Both the position numbers and the translations under genes were made by a program. A stretch of DNA of 29,723 bases from a virus, in the IMG/VR virus record IMGVR_UViG_3300025151_000199, positions 1 through 29,723 of that record, one strand, 5' to 3'. This document shows positions 3,001 to 24,605 of the stretch, piece by piece (position 1 is the first letter of the stretch; each line of letters starts with the position of its first letter). Below the pieces are notes generated by a model, which worked only from the letters and a program-made list of their open reading frames with translations, ran no database searches and was not told the DNA's origin.

Positions 3001-6000
3001 ATGTGAATGCTGACGGATCAACATCATGTATGTCTAATAATGTTGCATCATAAGTTGTCTTAAGATTGTTGTAAATTCTTTTTTCAAGTTCTAGGATAAG
3101 GTCATCACGCTCGTCACCAAACGTTTTAATTACTGATCCATCATGCTTACGAATGACCGCAGTGTCAGTTAGATATGTGTCGTCAGTAAATGTCTCTGGC
3201 TTAAATTTTGGATACATTCCTAATTTTGTAGGTGAAGGAGGCATATAACTGCCTGTAGTGTCTGGATAATCCTTGATCACTATCTTGTCTCCTTCTACTA
3301 ATGCCTTGCTTATTGTGACACTGTCATCTTCTGTGCTGAAGGTGTAGTCAGATCCTAGGATCAATTGCACATCGTTGTGATAGACGTAAACCGCACGGTT
3401 GCTCAAAGTCGTAATGTCATGCTGAGAATCTATAGCGTAATCTGTCTGAGAAGATCCTTGCACTGTGTATGATCTAGTAGACACGTTCTCGCCATGTCCA
3501 AGCATGTCCTCATAATAGAATGGAAATTTAGAAGTTCTGCCTTTGTTGATTGATAATATTATCTCATCAACTCTGTCGGCAACTACTCCTTCATAAGCCG
3601 TGCCCACTGCTTTAGTAAGGAAACTGTCATACCATTTTTGATATTCGCTGTTCACATAATCTATTGCTGTCATTAGGTTTGAATTTTGATCTACCAATCC
3701 AAAAATTGCAGGCATCAAAGATCCTTCATGCTGTAATATAGTTCCTCCTTTGAGTCTGGCATCTGGGTTGTCTCTAAGGTTACTGTTTCCGGGTATTACT
3801 CCTGTAAGGTCTTGATCTTTATCAAACATGTCTTTGACATGTCCTAATATTTGTCCAAAAGTAAATGTTCCAGATTGATCATTTGTAGCATTTATAGACA
3901 AGTTGTCTGCTATCTCGTAGATTCCTTTGCCGTCTACTTTGTCTGCCGAACTGTAACCTGCTATTCTTATCTGGTCATCTACTTTAAGTTCATCAACGAA
4001 TCTCACATATTTGTTAGTGGTTCCATCCACAAGTGTGTAGTCAGTGCCTAAGGTTTTTCTTATCCCGTTTACATTTACTGAAACCTTTAAATCTGACAAG
4101 TCTACTGAATTGGCAAAAAAATCAATGGGAAACAATCGTTTCTCTGTGTCTCCAACTATGTAGGTCCTTATTACCCTTTGCTCACTGTCATCTGTCCTTT
4201 CTATCCATGCACTTCGGTGATTGTCTGTTGATCTGCCTGTGGTGTAGTGTAAATGACCTGATGCTAAATTTTTTGTGATAGTTGAAGTACCAGACCTATA
4301 TGTGAATGTTCCTAATGTATGATCAGAATCAAATACCATGTCTCCAATGTTATTAATAGTGTTGTACTTGACTTTTATTCCAAGCACTGTATCTGTTGTT
4401 GCCGAGTCGCTTGTGGCATATGAAAAAACTTTTGCTCCTGTAAAATCTGAATTTGGGTAAACAGTTGTATCAGCAAACGATACATCGTTGTCATCAAACA
4501 TATTGAATAAAGGCTGTTGGTTAACTTTTGTCTTTTCTTGTGCTTTCTTGTATTCCTCTGTTGAACTATCATAGTAATAAGTGTTACCTTGATTGTTTGT
4601 ACCAAATTCTATGTATATGCTGTCATTTTCTGATGGCGTACCGTCAGAGGCTTCTGTTAGTGCTATAACCTGTGTGCTATCACCAGCAGTCACAAAATCC
4701 ACATCGTATACTTTGTTTTTGACCAAAGAGTCTGTGTCCGCCGTGAACACAACCCTCATTCCTGTTTCCAGAGTAACACCGTCTATTATGAAACCAGGCT
4801 GATTGATAACCGTACTAAAGACATCTGTTGTCACAGTATCTAAAAGTGTAACCGATTTCTTGGCAACAGTTCCGTGATTATATAATTGAACCCCGGAATC
4901 AAATTCTATGATAGGTCTTTTAGCACGATCCGTCTCATCTAGAACTGGTGTATAGCCGCTGAATTCCGCTGTCTGTTCAATCACTGACCTATGGAACCAT
5001 CTGTTGTACCTAGACCATGCATTCCTGTCAATGCTGTCCCTCTTTATTGTGATATAATCTGGCTTGTCAGGCAGATAGAATGCTTTGGCATACGGCCTTG
5101 AATCGTATCCAACAGTGTCATAAAGGATGGTTGTCTCTGTGGCATAACTGGCAGGAGTTATCAATTCATCTACATCTGTTAATGTAATAGATTCACCAAC
5201 TCCTTCAACGTAGTATTCTTTGTCTTTGTACCCCGCTGGTACTTTGTCATTTGTGAATTTGATTTTCATACCATTGGACAGGTTCAAAGTCCTAAGTGAA
5301 TAATTCCTTGCCCCTATGATATCATTGTCAGGATCAATCTGGTATGTGTCATCTACCGCTCTTATTTGTAGAATTCCGTATTGTGCATCGTGGTTACCAC
5401 ATTGATAGTAAAGTGTGTTAGGTGTTAGATCGTCATTAACGTATGTAGGCACAGTGAAAGTTACAGTGCCATAATCAGATCCATTGTTCGTCACTCCTGT
5501 TGAATATATTGTAGACGTGCTACCATCCGCCGCTATCTTGTTTTTGTAAGGCTCCGTCATTATCCAGAAAGGATGTCCTTTTGCATTTACTTTAAATTTG
5601 TATGTGTTACCTCTGTACAATGTCAGAATAGGGTTACGCTCGTTCTCTCTGTGTAGGAAGTTCCAAGCACGTTCAGAACTGCCATCCAATGGCCACGGTT
5701 CAACTTTATATTCTGCGACCGCTTGTGGACCTACTGAATCAATCTCTATGGCATTTGGACCTTGTGGCATCCAGTAGTATTCTCTGTAATTCACAAGTTT
5801 GTCATAGTCTATGGCTGGATTCCAAGCGTATGTTTTCTCTTTATTAAGTCTGTCATGATTGTTGACATTGCCGCCTAGATATTTTATTTGGTTAATGTAG
5901 TCATCATACGTTCCAGTAAATTTAACTTGGTCCTCTGGATTCACTGAAGTTGTGTCTTTGTCTGTGTAAGTGATCGCTGGCTCTAATTGATAAGCAAATC

Positions 6001-6250
6001 TATCGGCACTTGTTGCACCAATGTACCTGTCAGTGGCTATCCTTGTGGTTGCGTCTTGCTTACCTATGAAACCATCTAATCTTTCAAGAGATCCTTTTTG
6101 AACAAGTGGATCCAGTGTGCTAGATAAAAATCTATCATTGGTGTCAGTCCTGTAAAATGCAGGCAAGTGTTGGATCGTTCTTCGAATCTCAGTTTTGCCT
6201 TGCTTGACTACTTCGTTATTTGTAAGAGGACTTGTAGGTTTATCTGCCAT
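1..6250 (-). CDS. Giant virion structural protein, likely baseplate-associated (C-terminus outside window)
   Basis: The minus frame starts with ATG at 6250 (MADKPTSPL) and stays open to base 1, giving at least 2083 codons with no stop. The start overlaps the gp6 stop as TAATG, so the two are probably translationally coupled. The reading is rich in Asp, Thr, Tyr and Asn and in short beta-type repeats, as in phage appendage proteins. Around residues 215-292 there is a cupredoxin-like signature: GHPFWI with His226, then YYQCGNHDAQYG with Cys284, His287 and Gln290. The place after gp6 is where T4 has gp7 (1032 residues), and marine T4-like phages often carry very large structural proteins there. 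A gp7 or VrlC-like wedge/peripheral role is inferred from position only. At the window edge the chain reads FADADSDGLWR, a DxDxDG motif that could bind calcium. Confidence 0.85.
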   Translation of the reverse strand, partial: MADKPTSPLTNNEVVKQGKTEIRRTIQHLPAFYRTDTNDRFLSSTLDPLVQKGSLERLDGFIGKQDATTRIATDRYIGATSADRFAYQLEPAITYTDKDTTSVNPEDQVKFTGTYDDYINQIKYLGGNVNNHDRLNKEKTYAWNPAIDYDKLVNYREYYWMPQGPNAIEIDSVGPQAVAEYKVEPWPLDGSSERAWNFLHRENERNPILTLYRGNTYKFKVNAKGHPFWIMTEPYKNKIAADGSTSTIYSTGVTNNGSDYGTVTFTVPTYVNDDLTPNTLYYQCGNHDAQYGILQIRAVDDTYQIDPDNDIIGARNYSLRTLNLSNGMKIKFTNDKVPAGYKDKEYYVEGVGESITLTDVDELITPASYATETTILYDTVGYDSRPYAKAFYLPDKPDYITIKRDSIDRNAWSRYNRWFHRSVIEQTAEFSGYTPVLDETDRAKRPIIEFDSGVQLYNHGTVAKKSVTLLDTVTTDVFSTVINQPGFIIDGVTLETGMRVVFTADTDSLVKNKVYDVDFVTAGDSTQVIALTEASDGTPSENDSIYIEFGTNNQGNTYYYDSSTEEYKKAQEKTKVNQQPLFNMFDDNDVSFADTTVYPNSDFTGAKVFSYATSDSATTDTVLGIKVKYNTINNIGDMVFDSDHTLGTFTYRSGTSTITKNLASGHLHYTTGRSTDNHRSAWIERTDDSEQRVIRTYIVGDTEKRLFPIDFFANSVDLSDLKVSVNVNGIRKTLGTDYTLVDGTTNKYVRFVDELKVDDQIRIAGYSSADKVDGKGIYEIADNLSINATNDQSGTFTFGQILGHVKDMFDKDQDLTGVIPGNSNLRDNPDARLKGGTILQHEGSLMPAIFGLVDQNSNLMTAIDYVNSEYQKWYDSFLTKAVGTAYEGVVADRVDEIILSINKGRTSKFPFYYEDMLGHGENVSTRSYTVQGSSQTDYAIDSQHDITTLSNRAVYVYHNDVQLILGSDYTFSTEDDSVTISKALVEGDKIVIKDYPDTTGSYMPPSPTKLGMYPKFKPETFTDDTYLTDTAVIRKHDGSVIKTFGDERDDLILELEKRIYNNLKTTYDATLLDIHDVDPSAFTSTDYTRTEINDVMGSDFYLWAGANNVQYINNTVFTDGLPFTYNYSRSTDRLLQEKLPGYWRGIYKYFYDTDAPHVRPWEMLGHSEKPSDWDATYGTAPYTSGNDVLWEAIATEPGRYGKPDIKTYLPVDASGNLLDPIATGLVDSFDIPGRMNTWKFGDQAPAETAWRRSSAYPFTAVKTLALTRPAQFFTNFFDPSRLTKNLSGNLVYKDTGVRMTLATAKYHLETETDNTTGITTRYQTAGYQPFVLNYLTSRNLDPTVFYYDKMKNLQVQLAYKLGGFSDKDNLKVLTDSVSPGSSSGSKFIPDENYKILFRTSNPVAGFDYSGVLIEKNTNVGPDGSTLAGGFKILGYSTAKPFFKFNYPFKGISGGKVNVAGVEVEKFKNFQETVQTIPYGYVFDTKQEVADFLFGYGNWLESQGFRFNKYSRELKETLNWDNAVREFLFWTTQEWAPGSAITVSPGADGLELDTNNSIVGQLKNIAGDYNILDAGGRKINVRELSTKRIGKTFDINLKSPDIGLYNISMTTVQKEHVLLFDNSTVFADIIYEPFTGFRQQRLKLVGWKTGNWNGDYYAPGFIFDSAQVTYWSANTDYKVGDTVEYQGKFYVAKVNHGSGTSFEFSNWMYKQEKPAAQLIPNFDYKISQFNDFYNLESNNFDESQQESAQRLIGFQNRDYLENLFVNDISQYKFYQGYIREKGTKNAIDRLTKAKYEGSDIALDLYPEWMIRTGTFGNTDLTESVQVTLQDNKVVANPQSIELHDTSNSDLEYNRSLRINVSDFYKKPVEYSAATTFNLLDYTKQGVSRDSAQVFKTAGYPRVEQVQHTLFSESDLLNLDVNSITQSDLIWVANKSNLDWDVFRFTFGGVNIDSLESINNSTQLKIIFDGSHGLSAGSSTTLPDKFAIVNSQENTLNKVFTVSSTPDHKTVVFDFDGNLGFIPGLLDGSTADSYGILYKFVSVRVSSMDVANANIGYGIWKAKDDSLEMPGDKIFADADSDGLWR

Positions 6251-9200
6251 TAGTATCCTGCCCCACTACTGCCGGTGCTTGAACCGGAGCCTGCTGTAGT
6301 GGAACCTGACACTGCTGAACCTGTTGTCGTGTTTGATGTAGCGGTCGATGTACTAGATACTACCTCGCCTGAAGCGGTAAGTTGGTTGGCTCCAAGAGCA
6401 GATATTATCGATACATCATTAACGGTGGCCCCACTAATAAAAATTTCGTCTGCCGCTGAATTAATTTGGAACAAAGATCCAAATCCTTGTCCAGACTGAT
6501 TAGGCACGATTACTACAGTAAGTAAGTCAGGTGCCAAAGCGTTGTGTATGAAAGCGGCTAATTCTGTAAAGTAAAATGCGTCTCCAAAATCCCAGTTGTC
6601 CAGTGCAAAAAACTCATTGATAGCATTTATGACTCGTGTTTTAATGATTGCATCTGTTGTCTTGACGTTTGGGTTTTTAACAACTTTAAAAGTTGCTTGT
6701 AATTCTTCGTCGGCATTTGATCCGAAAAGTATCTTGTATTTCACAGGATGATATATTATTTGATCACTAAGTGATTTCAAAGGATTAAGTTTACCTGAAT
6801 AACTTATTCGCATCTGGTCACTTGTCGAAGGCGTTGGTTCTGTGCCTCCGTCCTGTAACCATATTCTGTACAAGTTATCATATGTTCTCTCTAACAGATA
6901 TACGTCTACTATATTAGATACACTAGGATCTATCCTTGTCTCTTGTCCTGCATGATGCTTGTATTGAAAATTAATTGACCCTCTACCCCTACGTGCAAGG
7001 TAGTCTGTGCTTGTGCTAAATGAGTTAGTTGTTGTGCTGTATGATTTGATGACATCTTCGTCCGCCGCGTAAAAATAAAACAATTGGCCATCTGTGTATG
7101 TGTTTAAATTAAGATCTATGTCAGATTCTTTCTCAGACACTACAAAATTACTTGCCGCATAGGGTCTGTATCTTTCTATTTTATCATACGAGCTGTACTT
7201 CTCAAAAAACACAAATTTAGTAGATTCGGATAAAGTAGGTTCAACGTAGATGTCAAATAACTCAGGATTGTCAACTACTCCATCGTCGTCATCGTCGAAA
7301 AATCCTACCTTGACTTTCCTGTTGTCCTGATATCCATCTGCTTCGGTCACAGTGTCTACCACTTGCCAATTTATAGGATATCCAATGCTGTTTCCTGTTG
7401 AAACAATACTGTTCGTCTTTAATATTTTTACAGTGTCTTTGACTGCTTTACCAGTTTTGTAATCGTAAATTTTTTCTTCGGCATCATAGTGAAACTTGTT
7501 TTGTGCCTCGGATTCAAAAATATAATCCAGCCTTCTATATGTTACAGTGTACGTGTTTCCGTCATTTGTGAACTTGAACCACCAACTTGCATCGAGGTTG
7601 GTGCTTGATGTGTCACCTGTGTTGGTGAGAGCAAAAATAGAACTGGTGCTTAAATTAGTGCCCGTTATAACTTTCCATGTTTCAGACGCATCATCGTAAC
7701 GTAGTCCAAATTCTTCATATCCTTCGATCCTGTCTATGATATCTTTTTCAAGGTCGGCACTAAAATTTATAGTGAAATTTGGTATCACTGCATTTACTAC
7801 TGCACCGTCCGGTATCACTGTGTTCAATGTCACAGGTCCTAGACCAGATTCTAAATTTCCTACTCCACCATTAGCACCGTCACCTTCTACTAGGCCAACC
7901 TTTGCCCATGCTCTATCTTCCGCGTTGTCAGTGCCTGAAGTAACTAAAGTGTTATTCAAGAATTCTCTCGTGTCAGGTGAAGTGAACTTGACCAACGCTC
8001 CTGGTTTGACAAACTTTAAATTTGATGATGCAAAATCACCCACAACCAAAGGTCCAGCACTTTTAAAATATCCTGTGTTGGTGTTGGTCGATGTGCTTGT
8101 GGAGTTCCATGTCGCTGTCAATGAACTCAAATCTTTCGTTGCGTATTTTTGATAATAGAATTGCCTTGCGTATGCATTTTTCAACTTGGCCTCAACATCT
8201 GTGTCTAGTGTCTGCTGAATCTGGCTTCTATTAGTAAATGTGAAAGTGAACTGCTGTGTTGATTCTTCTCTGTACAATATGCCGTCTTCTGCGAACACGC
8301 TGACATCGGAGTACGCACCAGTTGGATCAAGTATCTCCTTGGCTCTCGATATGCCTGATGCGGATCTGTTTACTGCTCTTACTTTAATAATTTCTTGTGA
8401 AGCGGAAAGTGGCATCACTTGATAGTCCTCCGCTGTTATCATTCTGTTCTGAGCGTAATAAACCTGTGGTGCTTTTGCCTTGATTGAGTCGTTGCTTTCT
8501 GTTGCGGCACTGTTGTACACAGATGCCTTCAATCCCATTGTCACCGTCAAAGTTTGCTGTGCACCATTGGCATCCGTGTAAGGGATGGCAATCTGTACGT
8601 TCTGCATGTCGTTTGGTTGTATGGCATACTTGGAATTGTCACTTACTCTGTAGTAAGATCTAAAATTTCCTAAAGGGATATCAGCAAAGTTACCATCGCC
8701 AAACACTAGGTCTATCGAGTCTTCGTTGTTTGTGACAACATTGTATAGTGTTCTAATGTTTTTAGATAGTGAATTGTAAATGGCATTGTTTCCTGACAGT
8801 GCTGGCACCTTTGTCCATTGCTGTAGTGGTAATCCAAACTCATCTAATTTGAAAAGCCATACATCGCTGTCATTTATATTTTCTACGCCTATGTTCTGCA
8901 CGTAATTTGTCGTGGCACTGTTCACAGAGAAGTCGTTAAACTGCATAGTACCTTGTTTGAACAGCATGAAAAATCCAGTGTTGTTAGAACTGTCACCAGT
9001 GCCGTCGGTCCTGTAAGCATATGTTAGTCCTGTTCCGTTTACTGGTTCTCTCTCGTATATGCTGTCTGAATCATTTATCGAACTTGGCACTATCTCGAAG
9101 TTCCTGTTGACTCCACCTATGGAAGCATTGAAATTGAAAATTGGTAGGTCTAATTGGTTTGAGGCAATCGTGTAGATTTCAGTGTTGATCCCACCTATGT

Positions 9201-20962: not shown

Positions 20963-20993
20963 ACCCTCGGCTTTAACGAGTCGGGGGTTTTTT
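20963..20993 (+). terminator. Rho-independent terminator after the histone-like gene
   Basis: ACCCTCGGCT (20963-20972) pairs with AGTCGGGGGT (20979-20988) around a TTAACG loop, giving 10 bp with two G-T wobbles, followed by a run of six T at 20988-20993. The T run overlaps the stop codon of the convergent GIY-YIG gene. A 12-bp palindrome GAATTGCAATTC lies just before it at 20945-20956. Confidence 0.88.
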
Positions 20994-21405
20994 ATGATTT
21001 GAGAATTCCTTTGCCATGTACCCTAACACGGATATGGCCGTTGTAGTAATCGTTTGATTCTAACACTTTACGTGCAAACTGTTCACGTGCCTCAACATAT
21101 GACAGTTCTGCTTTAGATTTACAGTAGAAAAGTATTTGCCTCGTGAATTTGTCTTTACCAATCTTCAAAATATCTGCCGACAACTCGTCACTGCTTCCGT
21201 AATAATCTTGCCAATCGGAATCGACCTTGAAACGCCTTTTGTTCTTTCTGCCCTTCAGGGGAGGTCTGCTACGTTTGAACCTTGCAAGTTTTTTACCAAT
21301 GTACTTCCTGCCGTTAGTGGTATTCGTTATTTCATATACAAAACCAACACAGTCCTCTGGTAGCACTGTGATAGGTTTATTTAGATATGTCCAATTCTTA
21401 CTCAT
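20992..21405 (-). CDS. GIY-YIG-type nuclease family protein
   Basis: A 137-residue protein with the fold signature GFVYEITNTTNGRKYIGKK at about residues 21-39 (GFVYEI standing for GIY, then YIG at 35-37). A basic stretch KRSRPPLKGRKNKRRFK follows, then WQDYYGSSDEL (about 65-75). A lone GIY-YIG domain of this size with WxxYYGSS is common in marine T4-like phages. It could be a homing-type or DNA-processing nuclease; I see no separate DNA-binding domain. Its start overlaps the preceding gene by 8 bases, so it is the last gene of a three-gene minus-strand operon with the amidinotransferase-like gene. Confidence 0.75.
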   Translation of the reverse strand: MSKNWTYLNKPITVLPEDCVGFVYEITNTTNGRKYIGKKLARFKRSRPPLKGRKNKRRFKVDSDWQDYYGSSDELSADILKIGKDKFTRQILFYCKSKAELSYVEAREQFARKVLESNDYYNGHIRVRVHGKGILKS

Positions 21406-22321: not shown

Positions 22322-23327
22322 TGAAATAATCTACGCAACCTCCTGTCCTTCTTATATCTACTGTGATGCAATGTATTCCTCCGTCCCAAAAATGTCTAGT
22401 TGGGAAATCTACTACGTGGGGTGTTATTCCTAATTGCTCCATCTTTCTAAAACTCTGATCATGCTCTGCAATGCAAATGACATTGGACTCGTCTACCACA
22501 AGCATGTTGGCCTCAAACACCGTTTCCCTGCTGTCACCTACCCAGTCTTGTGCTTTCTGATTTACGTGCTGATTAAAGATGGGACTGTAATAATTGTTTT
22601 CACTAGTCCACCATCTTCCATTTACATTGTCATTCTCTTTGGTATCCAACCAAAAAACTTCCCAGCCGGGAGTAGACTTTTCGTACATAGACTTTTCTCC
22701 CCAGTGACTAGAAAAAATTTTGCCTTTCGCTATAGGACAAAAAACAGAATCCAGATGTCCTCCACTATCAGTTTTTATGACATCATAATCTACTTCCAAC
22801 ATCGCGACTGCTTGTTTTATCTTGTCGTGGTATTCAGAACTTTCAGACTGTTCAACAAAACCAGTGTCAACTATTAGGCGTTTGCCTAATCTTACTATGC
22901 CAGGAAATCCTAGCCAAGAGCGTGGATCTGGTCCTCTCTCCAAAATTTCAACCCTATCACCGTTATCCCTGTATTCATTTATTGCATCAGCAAAAGGTTC
23001 CACCTTGTATCCTTGTGGTATTATCCACAACTGCTCACCTATGGTCATTGCCCAGTCCCTCGGAGCAATTGGTGGTTTAATGAGGTTGCCAAAACTATCC
23101 AGGTAGTCCTCTTTGTTGTTGGTAAATCCGGGTGTCCTTACCTTTACTCCTAATTCCGTCAACTTGTTCTGTAAATTTTTCAATCCATACAAGGTCTGTT
23201 CTGTGATTCTAGAAAACGTGTCTTCGACCTGATTTGGTAAATCCTCGTAAAACTTGATTGGATACGTGCCTCCTATCCATGCCTCCTGCAGTGGCTGGAA
23301 ACCGGTAAAACTTTCAATTGATTTCAT
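22314..23327 (-). CDS. Glycine-amidinotransferase-like enzyme (pentein fold)
   Basis: A 337-residue member of the guanidino-group modifying (pentein) superfamily, closest by eye to arginine:glycine amidinotransferase. The nucleophile block is GGIHCITVDIRRTG with Cys320; the catalytic His is His191 in GGHLDSVFCP. EANMLVVDES (272-281) and LGITPHVVDFP are also family features, as is PRDW at 89-92. The usual Asp of the triad (FDAAD in AGAT) has no identical match; the segment around 138-156 (WLGFPGIVRLGKRLIVDTG) is in its place. The enzyme would move an amidino group from arginine to an amine or hydrolyse it; the acceptor cannot be read. It is the first gene of the minus-strand operon. The upstream 500 bases hold the putative structured RNA on the other strand. 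Confidence 0.85.
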   Translation of the reverse strand: MKSIESFTGFQPLQEAWIGGTYPIKFYEDLPNQVEDTFSRITEQTLYGLKNLQNKLTELGVKVRTPGFTNNKEDYLDSFGNLIKPPIAPRDWAMTIGEQLWIIPQGYKVEPFADAINEYRDNGDRVEILERGPDPRSWLGFPGIVRLGKRLIVDTGFVEQSESSEYHDKIKQAVAMLEVDYDVIKTDSGGHLDSVFCPIAKGKIFSSHWGEKSMYEKSTPGWEVFWLDTKENDNVNGRWWTSENNYYSPIFNQHVNQKAQDWVGDSRETVFEANMLVVDESNVICIAEHDQSFRKMEQLGITPHVVDFPTRHFWDGGIHCITVDIRRTGGCVDYFNG

Positions 23328-23352
23328 TTAATTTTATTTAAAGCCAAAAAGA

Positions 23353-23379
23353 TTGACCTGCAAATAAAACTAGTATAAA
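23353..23379 (+). promoter_or_regulatory. Candidate promoter for the structured RNA
   Basis: TTGACC (23353-23358) and TATAAA (23374-23379) are separated by 15 bases, two shorter than ideal. TATAAACA here also differs from the late consensus TATAAATA by one base. Either reading puts a start near 23386, just where the hairpins begin. Confidence 0.45.
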
Positions 23380-23381
23380 CA

Positions 23382-23810
23382 AGTGCGATAGGCACACTAC
23401 ATTCTTTAAAAATTTCAATCAGGCAAACATAGCATCGCAACCAGTGAGCAGGGAAATGCGGCTAACAAGCGACAGGTGAATCCCTTGATGCAAACAGCAA
23501 AAAATGATGAGGCTCTGAGAAACAGCAACCTCAGGTCTACTGTAGATTATCATACAAAGATGCAGTGGGCTCGCGTTGGATAGTATAAGTTAACGGGTAC
23601 AGCACAACCGCCCGGCGATAGCAACGATGTATGGTGACTGCGAACTCAGTACACGGGTTAAAGTCGATACTGCTAGAAATAGCAGTATTGTGACTGCTCA
23701 TCTAGTACAGCAGGACGCACATTGCGTAAATGCGTAAATTACTGTTCTCTGCGTAAATTAAAAAAAGGAAACGAGCGTAAGCGAAGTTTCAGATGACGTA
23801 AGTCATCTCC
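23382..23810 (+). ncRNA. Large structured non-coding RNA candidate, family not assigned
   Basis: About 430 bases without a plausible ORF but dense in hairpins. Visible stems: GTGC/GCAC (23383-23395); GCATC (23432-23436) with GATGC (23487-23491) enclosing AGGGA/TCCCT; TGAGG/CCTCA with an inner CTG/CAG (23508-23533); GTGACTG with CAGT-A-CAC (23634-23654). Next are a perfect 9-bp stem capped by GAAA (23667-23688) inside AGTC/GACT; CTGCT/AGCAG (23694-23713); a GAAAC/GTTTC stem with tandem G-A mismatches and a GTAA loop (23768-23790); and a perfect 7-bp stem capped by GTAA (23791-23808). GNRA loops appear only when read on the plus strand, which fixes the strand. The ends are guesses; no U-tract terminator follows, so it could be an independent RNA or a long 5' leader of the gene at 23832. 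Size and style recall phage-borne ornate RNAs such as GOLLD or ROOL, but I cannot match a family. Confidence 0.7.
23724..23759 (+). repeat. Three GCGTAAAT repeats in the structured RNA
   Basis: GCGTAAAT occurs at 23724-23731, 23732-23739 and 23751-23758; the last two copies continue with T. The first two are directly abutting. CGTAA also forms the loops of the two following hairpins (23776-23780 and 23797-23801). The unpaired-looking stretch could be a protein or antisense binding site. Confidence 0.6.
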
Positions 23811-23822
23811 TAGCATGAATTA

Positions 23823-23842
23823 AGTAGTTGCATGGAACTACT
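23823..23842 (+). promoter_or_regulatory. Hairpin with the start codon in its loop
   Basis: AGTAGTT (23823-23829) pairs perfectly with AACTACT (23836-23842) around the loop GCATGG, and the ATG of the downstream gene (23832-23834) is in that loop. No Shine-Dalgarno is visible upstream. Access to the start codon would depend on this hairpin and possibly on the RNA structure just before it. Confidence 0.55.
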
Positions 23843-24605
23843 CTTCGACCACACTTTCGGCAAACAGGAACAGCAGGATCTTGTCATATGCAGGCCCATG
23901 GCCATAGTGGACGAGGATGAGGAATCAGAGGCGATCGAGAGAGGTTGGCTCGCACTTGACCATCCCATAGGCAATCACCGTGAGGTGTTCTACCAATCAC
24001 GTAGCACAAGGATCGACATAGACAAATGGCGTCCTCGTTACAAATCGCACACGCACGACGGCAAAAAGATCGGCATGAAAGTGATCGACGCAAGTGAGAT
24101 GGTGAGGCTGTTGGGACTGCCGCACATATACAAGCAGTACATGGAGAGGAAAAAATTTGGCGCGGACTACGATCCGTTCGGACACTACCACCAGCGTGAT
24201 CAGTTCATGCTGTTCTACACCGGCACCGCGGACAACATCATAGGGTTCACCAAACAGAAACGATACCGGTACCAGGAAGACAACTACAGCACCATAGACA
24301 CGTATGACTCGCAGGACCTCGCCGGACTGGAGAGCGTGATACACGCCAACACTGTTCCCATATCAGACATCACGCTGGACATGGAGATCGAGTGGGCCAG
24401 CAACAACTACGTGAGATATTTCTACATGGGTTCCGGCTATGAGCATTCATCGGAATACAAGGCCAACTACAGGGGATTCGAGTGGTGGACTGGCACGGAA
24501 TGGAGCACCAACAAGAAACAGTACAAACGACTGTGTAGGAGGGACTCTAAACTTTCGGACTTTTCGGATCTCGGAAACCTTTCACTGATCTCAGATAATC
24601 TTTAG
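23832..24605 (+). CDS. Unknown protein with an arginyltransferase/GNAT-like C-terminal half
   Basis: A 257-residue protein. The N-terminus (MELLFDHTFGKQ, then AIERGWLALDHPIG and FYQSRSTRIDI) resembles conserved unknown proteins of marine T4-like phages, which supports ATG 23832 although no Shine-Dalgarno is present. The middle has FMLFYTGTADNIIGFTKQKRY, and residues ~188-225 (MEIEWASNNYVRYFYMGSG, then YEHSSEYKANYRGFEWWTG) recall the C-terminal catalytic half of arginyl-tRNA-protein transferases, a GNAT-fold family with a YLG-Y-I--S-KM-YK pattern. Transfer of an aminoacyl or acyl group is therefore possible but unproven. Its 3' end overlaps the convergent gene by 59 bases. Confidence 0.75.
   Translation: MELLFDHTFGKQEQQDLVICRPMAIVDEDEESEAIERGWLALDHPIGNHREVFYQSRSTRIDIDKWRPRYKSHTHDGKKIGMKVIDASEMVRLLGLPHIYKQYMERKKFGADYDPFGHYHQRDQFMLFYTGTADNIIGFTKQKRYRYQEDNYSTIDTYDSQDLAGLESVIHANTVPISDITLDMEIEWASNNYVRYFYMGSGYEHSSEYKANYRGFEWWTGTEWSTNKKQYKRLCRRDSKLSDFSDLGNLSLISDNL

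Follow-up and report, generated by a model that had tools for sequence, protein, structure and literature searches.

Does the interval between a leftward ORF at 23327 and an ORF at 23832, in which no gene is found, encode a functional RNA, and if so of what kind? The window (the whole stretch of DNA that we analysed, 29,723 nt of IMG/VR virus record IMGVR_UViG_3300025151_000199) contains within this interval only one spurious 54-aa ORF, on the minus strand. Plus-strand ORFs are no longer than those in shuffles and indels are not multiples of three, thus the interval is judged not to be protein-coding. Genes for tRNA were not identified in the 29.7-kb window. A sequence-only reading had described 23382-23810 as gene-free, with three named GNRA stems and with GNRA loops on the plus strand alone. 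The interval is indeed gene-free and all three stems are present; GNRA hairpins with stems of at least 5 bp number two on the plus strand and zero on the minus (shuffled mean 0.11, P 0.008), so the strand claim holds in the window. The folding energy z is -2.9 for the plus and -2.1 for the minus strand. On its own this is modest evidence, and the case therefore rests on relatives. With these in hand, we conclude that the plus strand at about 23383-23808 is a gene for a non-coding RNA, and that selection acts on the fold of this RNA (both ends of the gene are approximate; the transcription start site and the 3' end were not measured).

At least 190 homologous loci were identified in marine phages. 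ORF 23832, used as a probe, recovered 80 marine viral loci, most with a non-coding stretch directly upstream (75-95% identity), and the nhmmer matches upstream of relatives of this ORF have E values of 1e-12 to 1e-119. The most conserved word, GGGTACAGCACAACCGCCC, occurs exactly in at least 120 viral contigs, as well as in four contigs from metagenome-assembled genomes, and every contig with the exact word, very diverged ones included, has a match to the RNA profile around it. Metagenome-assembled genome contigs that carry the RNA (L287-L290, assigned to Marinimicrobia, Pacearchaeota, Betaproteobacteria and Pelagibacter) appear to be mis-binned phage contigs. A pattern leaving out the clade of the window recovered 25 contigs from the diverged clades C and D. 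The baseplate hub gene, used as a probe, gave 75 new loci. Model R1 matches 50 of these; only three of the 25 without a match (L323, L348 and L369) extend at least 2 kb beyond the hub. One of these, L369, has on the reverse strand at about 5600-6300 a stretch whose first ~60 nt (CAGGCAAAACA..GGUUGGCGGGCCAG..ACCGCUGUGGAAAAA) are in common with clade D (L184/L212) and whose body is different, implying that modules are exchanged. Model R1 matches once in the window (211 bits, E 5e-57) and once in each of ten long contigs of up to 328 kb. Across a large group of marine phages, the RNA is almost always present at a single locus. Homologues in isolate phages were not found by blastn with the window or diverged members as queries.

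Covariation was assessed for all column pairs of 85 non-redundant homologues, with the null simulated per column on their tree; the test is purpose-written and R-scape-like, and is not R-scape itself. Of these pairs, 24 reach E <=0.05, and about 20 of the 24 are nearly always Watson-Crick. Structure counts were taken on a core alignment of 40 sequences, in which the marine model (57 pairs) has 94.2% of cells paired and two-sided changes in 37 of its 57 pairs. Two-sided cells number 359, versus 96 in shuffles, and slid control models pair 33-44% of cells. The covarying pairs support a multibranched fold in which two pseudoknots surround a single core. No family of Rfam 15 matches in any clade, and a scan of the window at the gathering score or at E up to 10 gives only one chance match. 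The initial proposal of a large structured RNA of no known family therefore held, on the basis of homologues, covariation and the absence of an Rfam match. Of the checks suggested with it, the Rfam scan gave no family match, and the homologues collected showed covariation in the R-scape-like test.

The 5' domain (23432-23491, plus strand) is closed by GCATC (23432-23436) with GATGC (23487-23491), around an inner helix of 23450-23453 with 23481-23484, and has two-sided changes. Relatives replace GCATC/GATGC by GCGTC/GACGC, and the GGG/CCC helix by AAGG/TCCT, AGTG/TCAC or ACGG/TCCG; pairs 23451/23484 and 23452/23483 covary at E 0. The nesting of GCATC/GATGC and CCC/GGG, part of the sequence-only reading, is thereby confirmed by compensatory replacements. 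A hairpin at 23509-23532 (plus strand) bears a conserved AGAAA(A/C)AG loop, with 100% of cells paired and two-sided changes in 5/6 pairs. CUG/CAG was rejected as its inner stem, as covariation prefers 23516-17/23526-27. A long hairpin at 23535-23570 (plus strand), which bears the kissing loop, has two-sided changes in 12/13 pairs, the top covarying ones being 23541/23564 and 23543/23562. Also rejected was TGAGCA (23445-23450) with TGCTCA (23695-23700) as a third long-range helix, pairing being lost when either side changes.

The first pseudoknot joins the kissing loop at 23550-23556 to its partner at 23628-23634 (both plus strand), with 98.6% of cells paired and two-sided changes in 6/7 pairs; the partner is placed by covariation as well as by the structure counts. 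This helix surfaced unpredicted in the unbiased scan (23551/23633 and 23555/23629, E 0), and the diverged clades keep it with other words (CUACAUAU/AUAUGUAG, UCUGUAACA/UGUUACAGA, CCUUUAU/AUAAAGG, CCGUUAU/AUAACGG and CUUGAA/UUCAAG). Single-sequence shuffle tests of the kissing helix are not significant for most sequences individually, thus the claim rests on covariation. The second pseudoknot involves an invariant CGUUG (23574-23578, plus strand), of which GUUG (23575-23578) pairs with CAAC (23605-23608) in the near-invariant loop ACAGCACAACC. It does not vary except in L021, where both sides changed in a compensatory G-C to U-A replacement. The loop belongs to the core hairpin (23594-23614, plus strand), whose GGGUACAGCACAACCGCCC (23595-23613) is nearly invariant in all clades, the exact 19-mer being present in at least 120 viral contigs, and whose closing pair 23594/23614 covaries at E 0. 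The order of elements (kissing hairpin, CGUUG, hairpin with loop ACAGNNCAACC, kissing partner) is met in marine clades A-D and also in the RaK2-like phages discussed below.

Towards the 3' end are several further plus-strand hairpins. A small one at 23615-23622, supported by covariation and by the structure counts, has a tetraloop that alternates between GNRA-like and UNCG types (GAUA, UACG, GAAA, GAGA). A hairpin of variable sequence at 23643-23659 has weaker support (76% of cells paired, two-sided changes in 4/5 pairs). The long hairpin at 23662-23695, with a UG bulge and a GAAA loop at 23676-23679, is the 9-bp stem recognized at the outset and has 93% of cells paired; in relatives its loop is GAAA, UAAC, GUGA, CAUC or others. 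The two hairpins at the 3' end (23768-23808) have GUAA loops: the first (23768-23790) contains the G-A mismatches as an internal loop, and the second (23791-23808) is the 7-bp GTAA stem. In the covariation test pair 23796/23803 reaches E 0 and pair 23771/23787 only E 0.28. There is no U-tract behind these, so they are not a canonical terminator. GNRA loops are thus present in the window but are not conserved and are incidental, and the description of the RNA as GNRA-rich, as a defining feature, failed. The loop words at 23648 and 23704 covary (AGUACA to ACCACA in both), yet are not complementary; possibly both dock to one partner.

The closest portal proteins are those of jumbo T4-like phages (Phosso, Atu_ph07, Serratia BF and others; 47-48% identity), and it was through synteny only that RaK2-like isolates were reached. 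The genes of Serratia phage BF follow the same order (sigma factor, gp47, gp46, endonuclease VII, gap, hub, structural gene, portal). Its syntenic gap, of 803 bp, is conserved: 31 isolate records have it at 68-100% identity. RaK2-like carriers include Serratia BF, Pectobacterium CBB, Cronobacter GAP32 and E. coli Sharanji. There are about five copies per RaK2-like genome (the syntenic one and about four paralogues), those of BF each lying in a gap of 645-803 bp, and IMG/VR contains more RaK2-like copies. Aligned orthologues and paralogues share a kissing-loop hairpin, ACCGUUG, a hairpin with loop ACAG/ACCG..CAACC, and a kissing partner. In the RaK2-like model 96.1% of cells are paired, with two-sided changes in 29/37 pairs. 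The kissing helix, which takes several forms, is 99.3% paired, and the GUUG pseudoknot is 100% paired through the variants GUUGC/GCAAC, GUUAC/GUAAC, GUUGU/ACAAC and GUCAU/AUGAC. No Rfam family matches the RaK2-like RNA at the gathering score. Annotated small minus-strand ORFs over the RNA in phages Kaldavass, 7t3 and PHA46 (L387, L391 and L398) are probably spurious.

A homologue in Agrobacterium phage Atu_ph07 was considered and rejected, as the syntenic gap contains unannotated ORFs and has no core; these ORFs (L382:6892-7880) are small and membrane-protein-like. The gap of Sinorhizobium phage Phosso has no core motif, Rfam match or match to the models of this class. This gap (L381:8127-9140, record 229759-230772) is a syntenic, non-coding stretch of ~1 kb with a fold z of -5.8, and may hold a different large structured RNA.

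Are the marine and RaK2-like RNAs homologous? The motif CGUUG-N18-26-ACAGNNCAACC occurs across marine and most RaK2-like loci, and in 25 kb of the BF syntenic locus (L385) it is found once, within the gap at the syntenic place (0.00 expected; because both groups had been compared before the core motif was defined, this figure flatters the result). With a slightly looser motif, every long marine contig tested has one copy and a RaK2-like genome has three or four, all on one strand; its reversed control gives zero in 11 genomes. Model R1 does not match the BF RNA. The top marine match of model R2 (L204) is in register and not significant (E 0.56), and R2 leaves the window RNA unmatched. There being no significant cross-match between the covariance models, homology rests on place, order, topology and motif. 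The alternative, that the RaK2-like RNA is unrelated and the likeness arose by convergence, draws on this lack of any significant cross-match by covariance models or blastn. Against it, the syntenic gap, the order of the four elements and the two crossing helices are all shared, and the loop ACAGNNCAACC is common to both groups at a similar 20-24 nt from CGUUG. We regard convergence as very improbable, and consider with high confidence that the RaK2-like RNA is the same class at the same place.

Could the RNA instead be a cis-acting leader or attenuator, lying in the 5' untranslated part of the next gene's mRNA and controlling its expression? In the window ORF 23832 begins 24 nt past the last hairpin. 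This ORF (23832-24605) is related to arginyl-tRNA-protein transferases (Pfam ATE_C, 2e-7 for a clade-B relative), and relatives of it were not found in isolate phages. Favoring a leader, the ATE-like gene is next on the same strand in 56 unselected loci, and four BF copies lie upstream of co-oriented genes, e.g., one for an ADP-ribosylglycohydrolase. However, the following gene is not conserved. Among the unselected loci the ATE-like gene is downstream and reversed in 12 and upstream and reversed in four (16 in all), and of the 72 loci whose downstream sequence is long enough to tell, 23 lack it. In other loci the RNA is followed by an aminotransferase-like, sulfotransferase-like or glutamate-synthase-like gene, or by one on the opposite strand. 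The gene after the syntenic RaK2 copy is convergent with it, and a separate TTAAGTA box lies between the RNA and ORF 23832. Lacking, therefore, is the constant co-oriented partner gene expected of a cis-regulatory leader, and we consider this explanation unlikely.

The genes that are constant are the flanking core genes. In loci found by motif alone, gp46 is upstream on the same strand in 95/95 and the baseplate hub is downstream on the opposite strand in 81/81, where seen. Thus the RNA holds one place and strand, in a single copy per long marine T4-like contig, whichever gene comes next. Two parts of the sequence-only reading did not survive. The data do not support a long leader for ORF 23832, because many loci with the RNA lack this ORF, have another gene in its stead or carry it in a different orientation; and the term accessory region does not suit the fixed position between gp46 and the hub. 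The stand-alone reading is qualified in the RaK2-like phages: of the five BF copies, four are followed by a gene in the same orientation and could therefore have a cis role.

A candidate promoter precedes the RNA at 23340-23379 (plus strand). It is conserved, and comprises the block AAAGCCAAAAAGATTGACC (23340-23358), TTGACC at 23353 and TATAAA at 23374. The first 19 nt are 100% identical in many loci, and TTGAC with a TATA-type hexamer (a loose pattern, with main spacings of 15 and 19) was identified in 121/153 loci. A strict sigma-70 scan called no promoter ahead of the window RNA, thus this remains a candidate only. TTAA(A/G)TA occurs only three times in the window, and two of these bracket the RNA, 13-15 nt before the flanking start codons: TTAAGTA (23820-23826, plus strand) ahead of ORF 23832 and TTAAATA (23341-23335, minus strand) ahead of ORF 23327. 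These are possible late-promoter boxes of the flanking genes, of untested function; they are late-promoter-like, yet at this distance hardly any leader would remain. In almost all of 15 RaK2-like copies inspected, a TGRRAC-like box and then TATAAT precede the structured part. This arrangement resembles a TGAAACG/TATA class of promoters reported from CBB and GAP32 (PMC5259590); non-coding RNA is not mentioned in the text of that paper. The syntenic BF copy has a terminator-like hairpin behind it.

A further alternative is that the RNA is the remnant of a mobile self-splicing intron or homing element travelling with a GIY-YIG segE gene. A segE-like GIY-YIG gene adjoins the RNA in 120 loci, nearly all marine loci, and the module exchange seen in L369 relative to L184/L212 is compatible with mobility. 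Set against this, no clade has an Rfam match to group I, group II or HEARO, no split gene surrounds the RNA, place and strand are fixed over large divergence, and the annotated BF copies have no adjoining segE. We consider this origin highly improbable. The 5' end is GUGCG-like and had suggested a group II intron, an idea likewise rejected for want of an Rfam match. The segE-like gene of the window is at 20992-21405, and more than 500 stretches of viral contigs encode it.

The best explanation of the whole is, in our judgment, a stand-alone structured RNA of a new class, which we hold to be likely. We infer that it would form a transcription unit by itself, active at an early or middle stage of infection (a transcript has yet to be seen), with a putative promoter that is sigma-70-like in marine phages and of the TGAAACG/TATA class in RaK2-like phages. 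It is predicted to act in trans via a rigid fold, for which direct evidence is lacking. Most probably it would bind and occupy a host or phage protein or ribonucleoprotein, the partner being unknown, or may self-assemble as do GOLLD, ROOL and OLE.

Self-assembly in its strong form is an RNA-only homo-oligomer (rings or cages), in which the kissing helix, or part of it, is intermolecular and paralogues within a genome differ in their kissing words so as to avoid mixing. In support, the covarying kissing loop of ROOL proved intermolecular (PMC12286853), and kissing words of the BF copies differ (AUUGUAU, GUCGAAU, UUCAUGU, CUGAAU). However, covariation cannot separate intra- from intermolecular pairing, and the short, unvarying distance between loop and partner is what an ordinary intramolecular pseudoknot would have. 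Moreover, the marine form, at ~430 nt, is below the size of GOLLD or ROOL, and two BF copies (L385 and L401) share AUUGUAU, so not all differ. We consider a homo-oligomer unlikely. The same doubt attaches to a bolder reading, in which the ~5 paralogues, with partly orthogonal kissing words, each build their own homo-oligomer particle and the marine RNA is the single ancestral copy. The RNA probably pays for itself, because phage genomes rarely give 650-800 bp per copy to non-coding sequence.

Searches of the open-access literature found no report of this RNA; an earlier report in subscription papers or preprints is possible. The class appears to have escaped annotation, although it is also present in cultured jumbo phages that infect E. 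coli, Salmonella, Serratia, Erwinia, Cronobacter and Xanthomonas. One carrier is a phage of E. coli K-12, which makes the role of ornate phage RNAs directly testable.

Several known systems provide the closest parallels. Jumbo phages also carry group II introns (PMC12350094, which does not mention RaK2-like phages), and there too several structurally related large RNAs occur per genome. Here, in contrast, there is no Rfam group II match, split gene or adjoining reverse transcriptase gene. OLE is likewise a large folded RNA, in its case an RNA dimer; the RNA described here does not match it in Rfam. OLE is a bacterial RNA, whereas the present one is from phages. The likeness to GOLLD, shown by cryo-EM to form a nanocage (PMC12286853), is that of a large, multibranched and pseudoknotted phage non-coding RNA with marine members. 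GOLLD differs in its length (~800 nt, versus ~430-600 here) and core motif, its Rfam model is unmatched, and it is often near tRNA islands, unlike the window RNA, which has no tRNA near it. ROOL, also a cryo-EM nanocage (PMC12286853), is similarly a phage-borne ornate RNA with a covarying kissing loop. Its Rfam model is also unmatched, there are ~5 paralogues in RaK2-like genomes here, and its frequent (not strict) proximity to tRNA genes is not met in the window. The class of RNA is new, and we do not claim novelty for its mode of action. Although its function is unknown, we conclude that the RNA is likely GOLLD/ROOL-like in mode and structurally unrelated to both.
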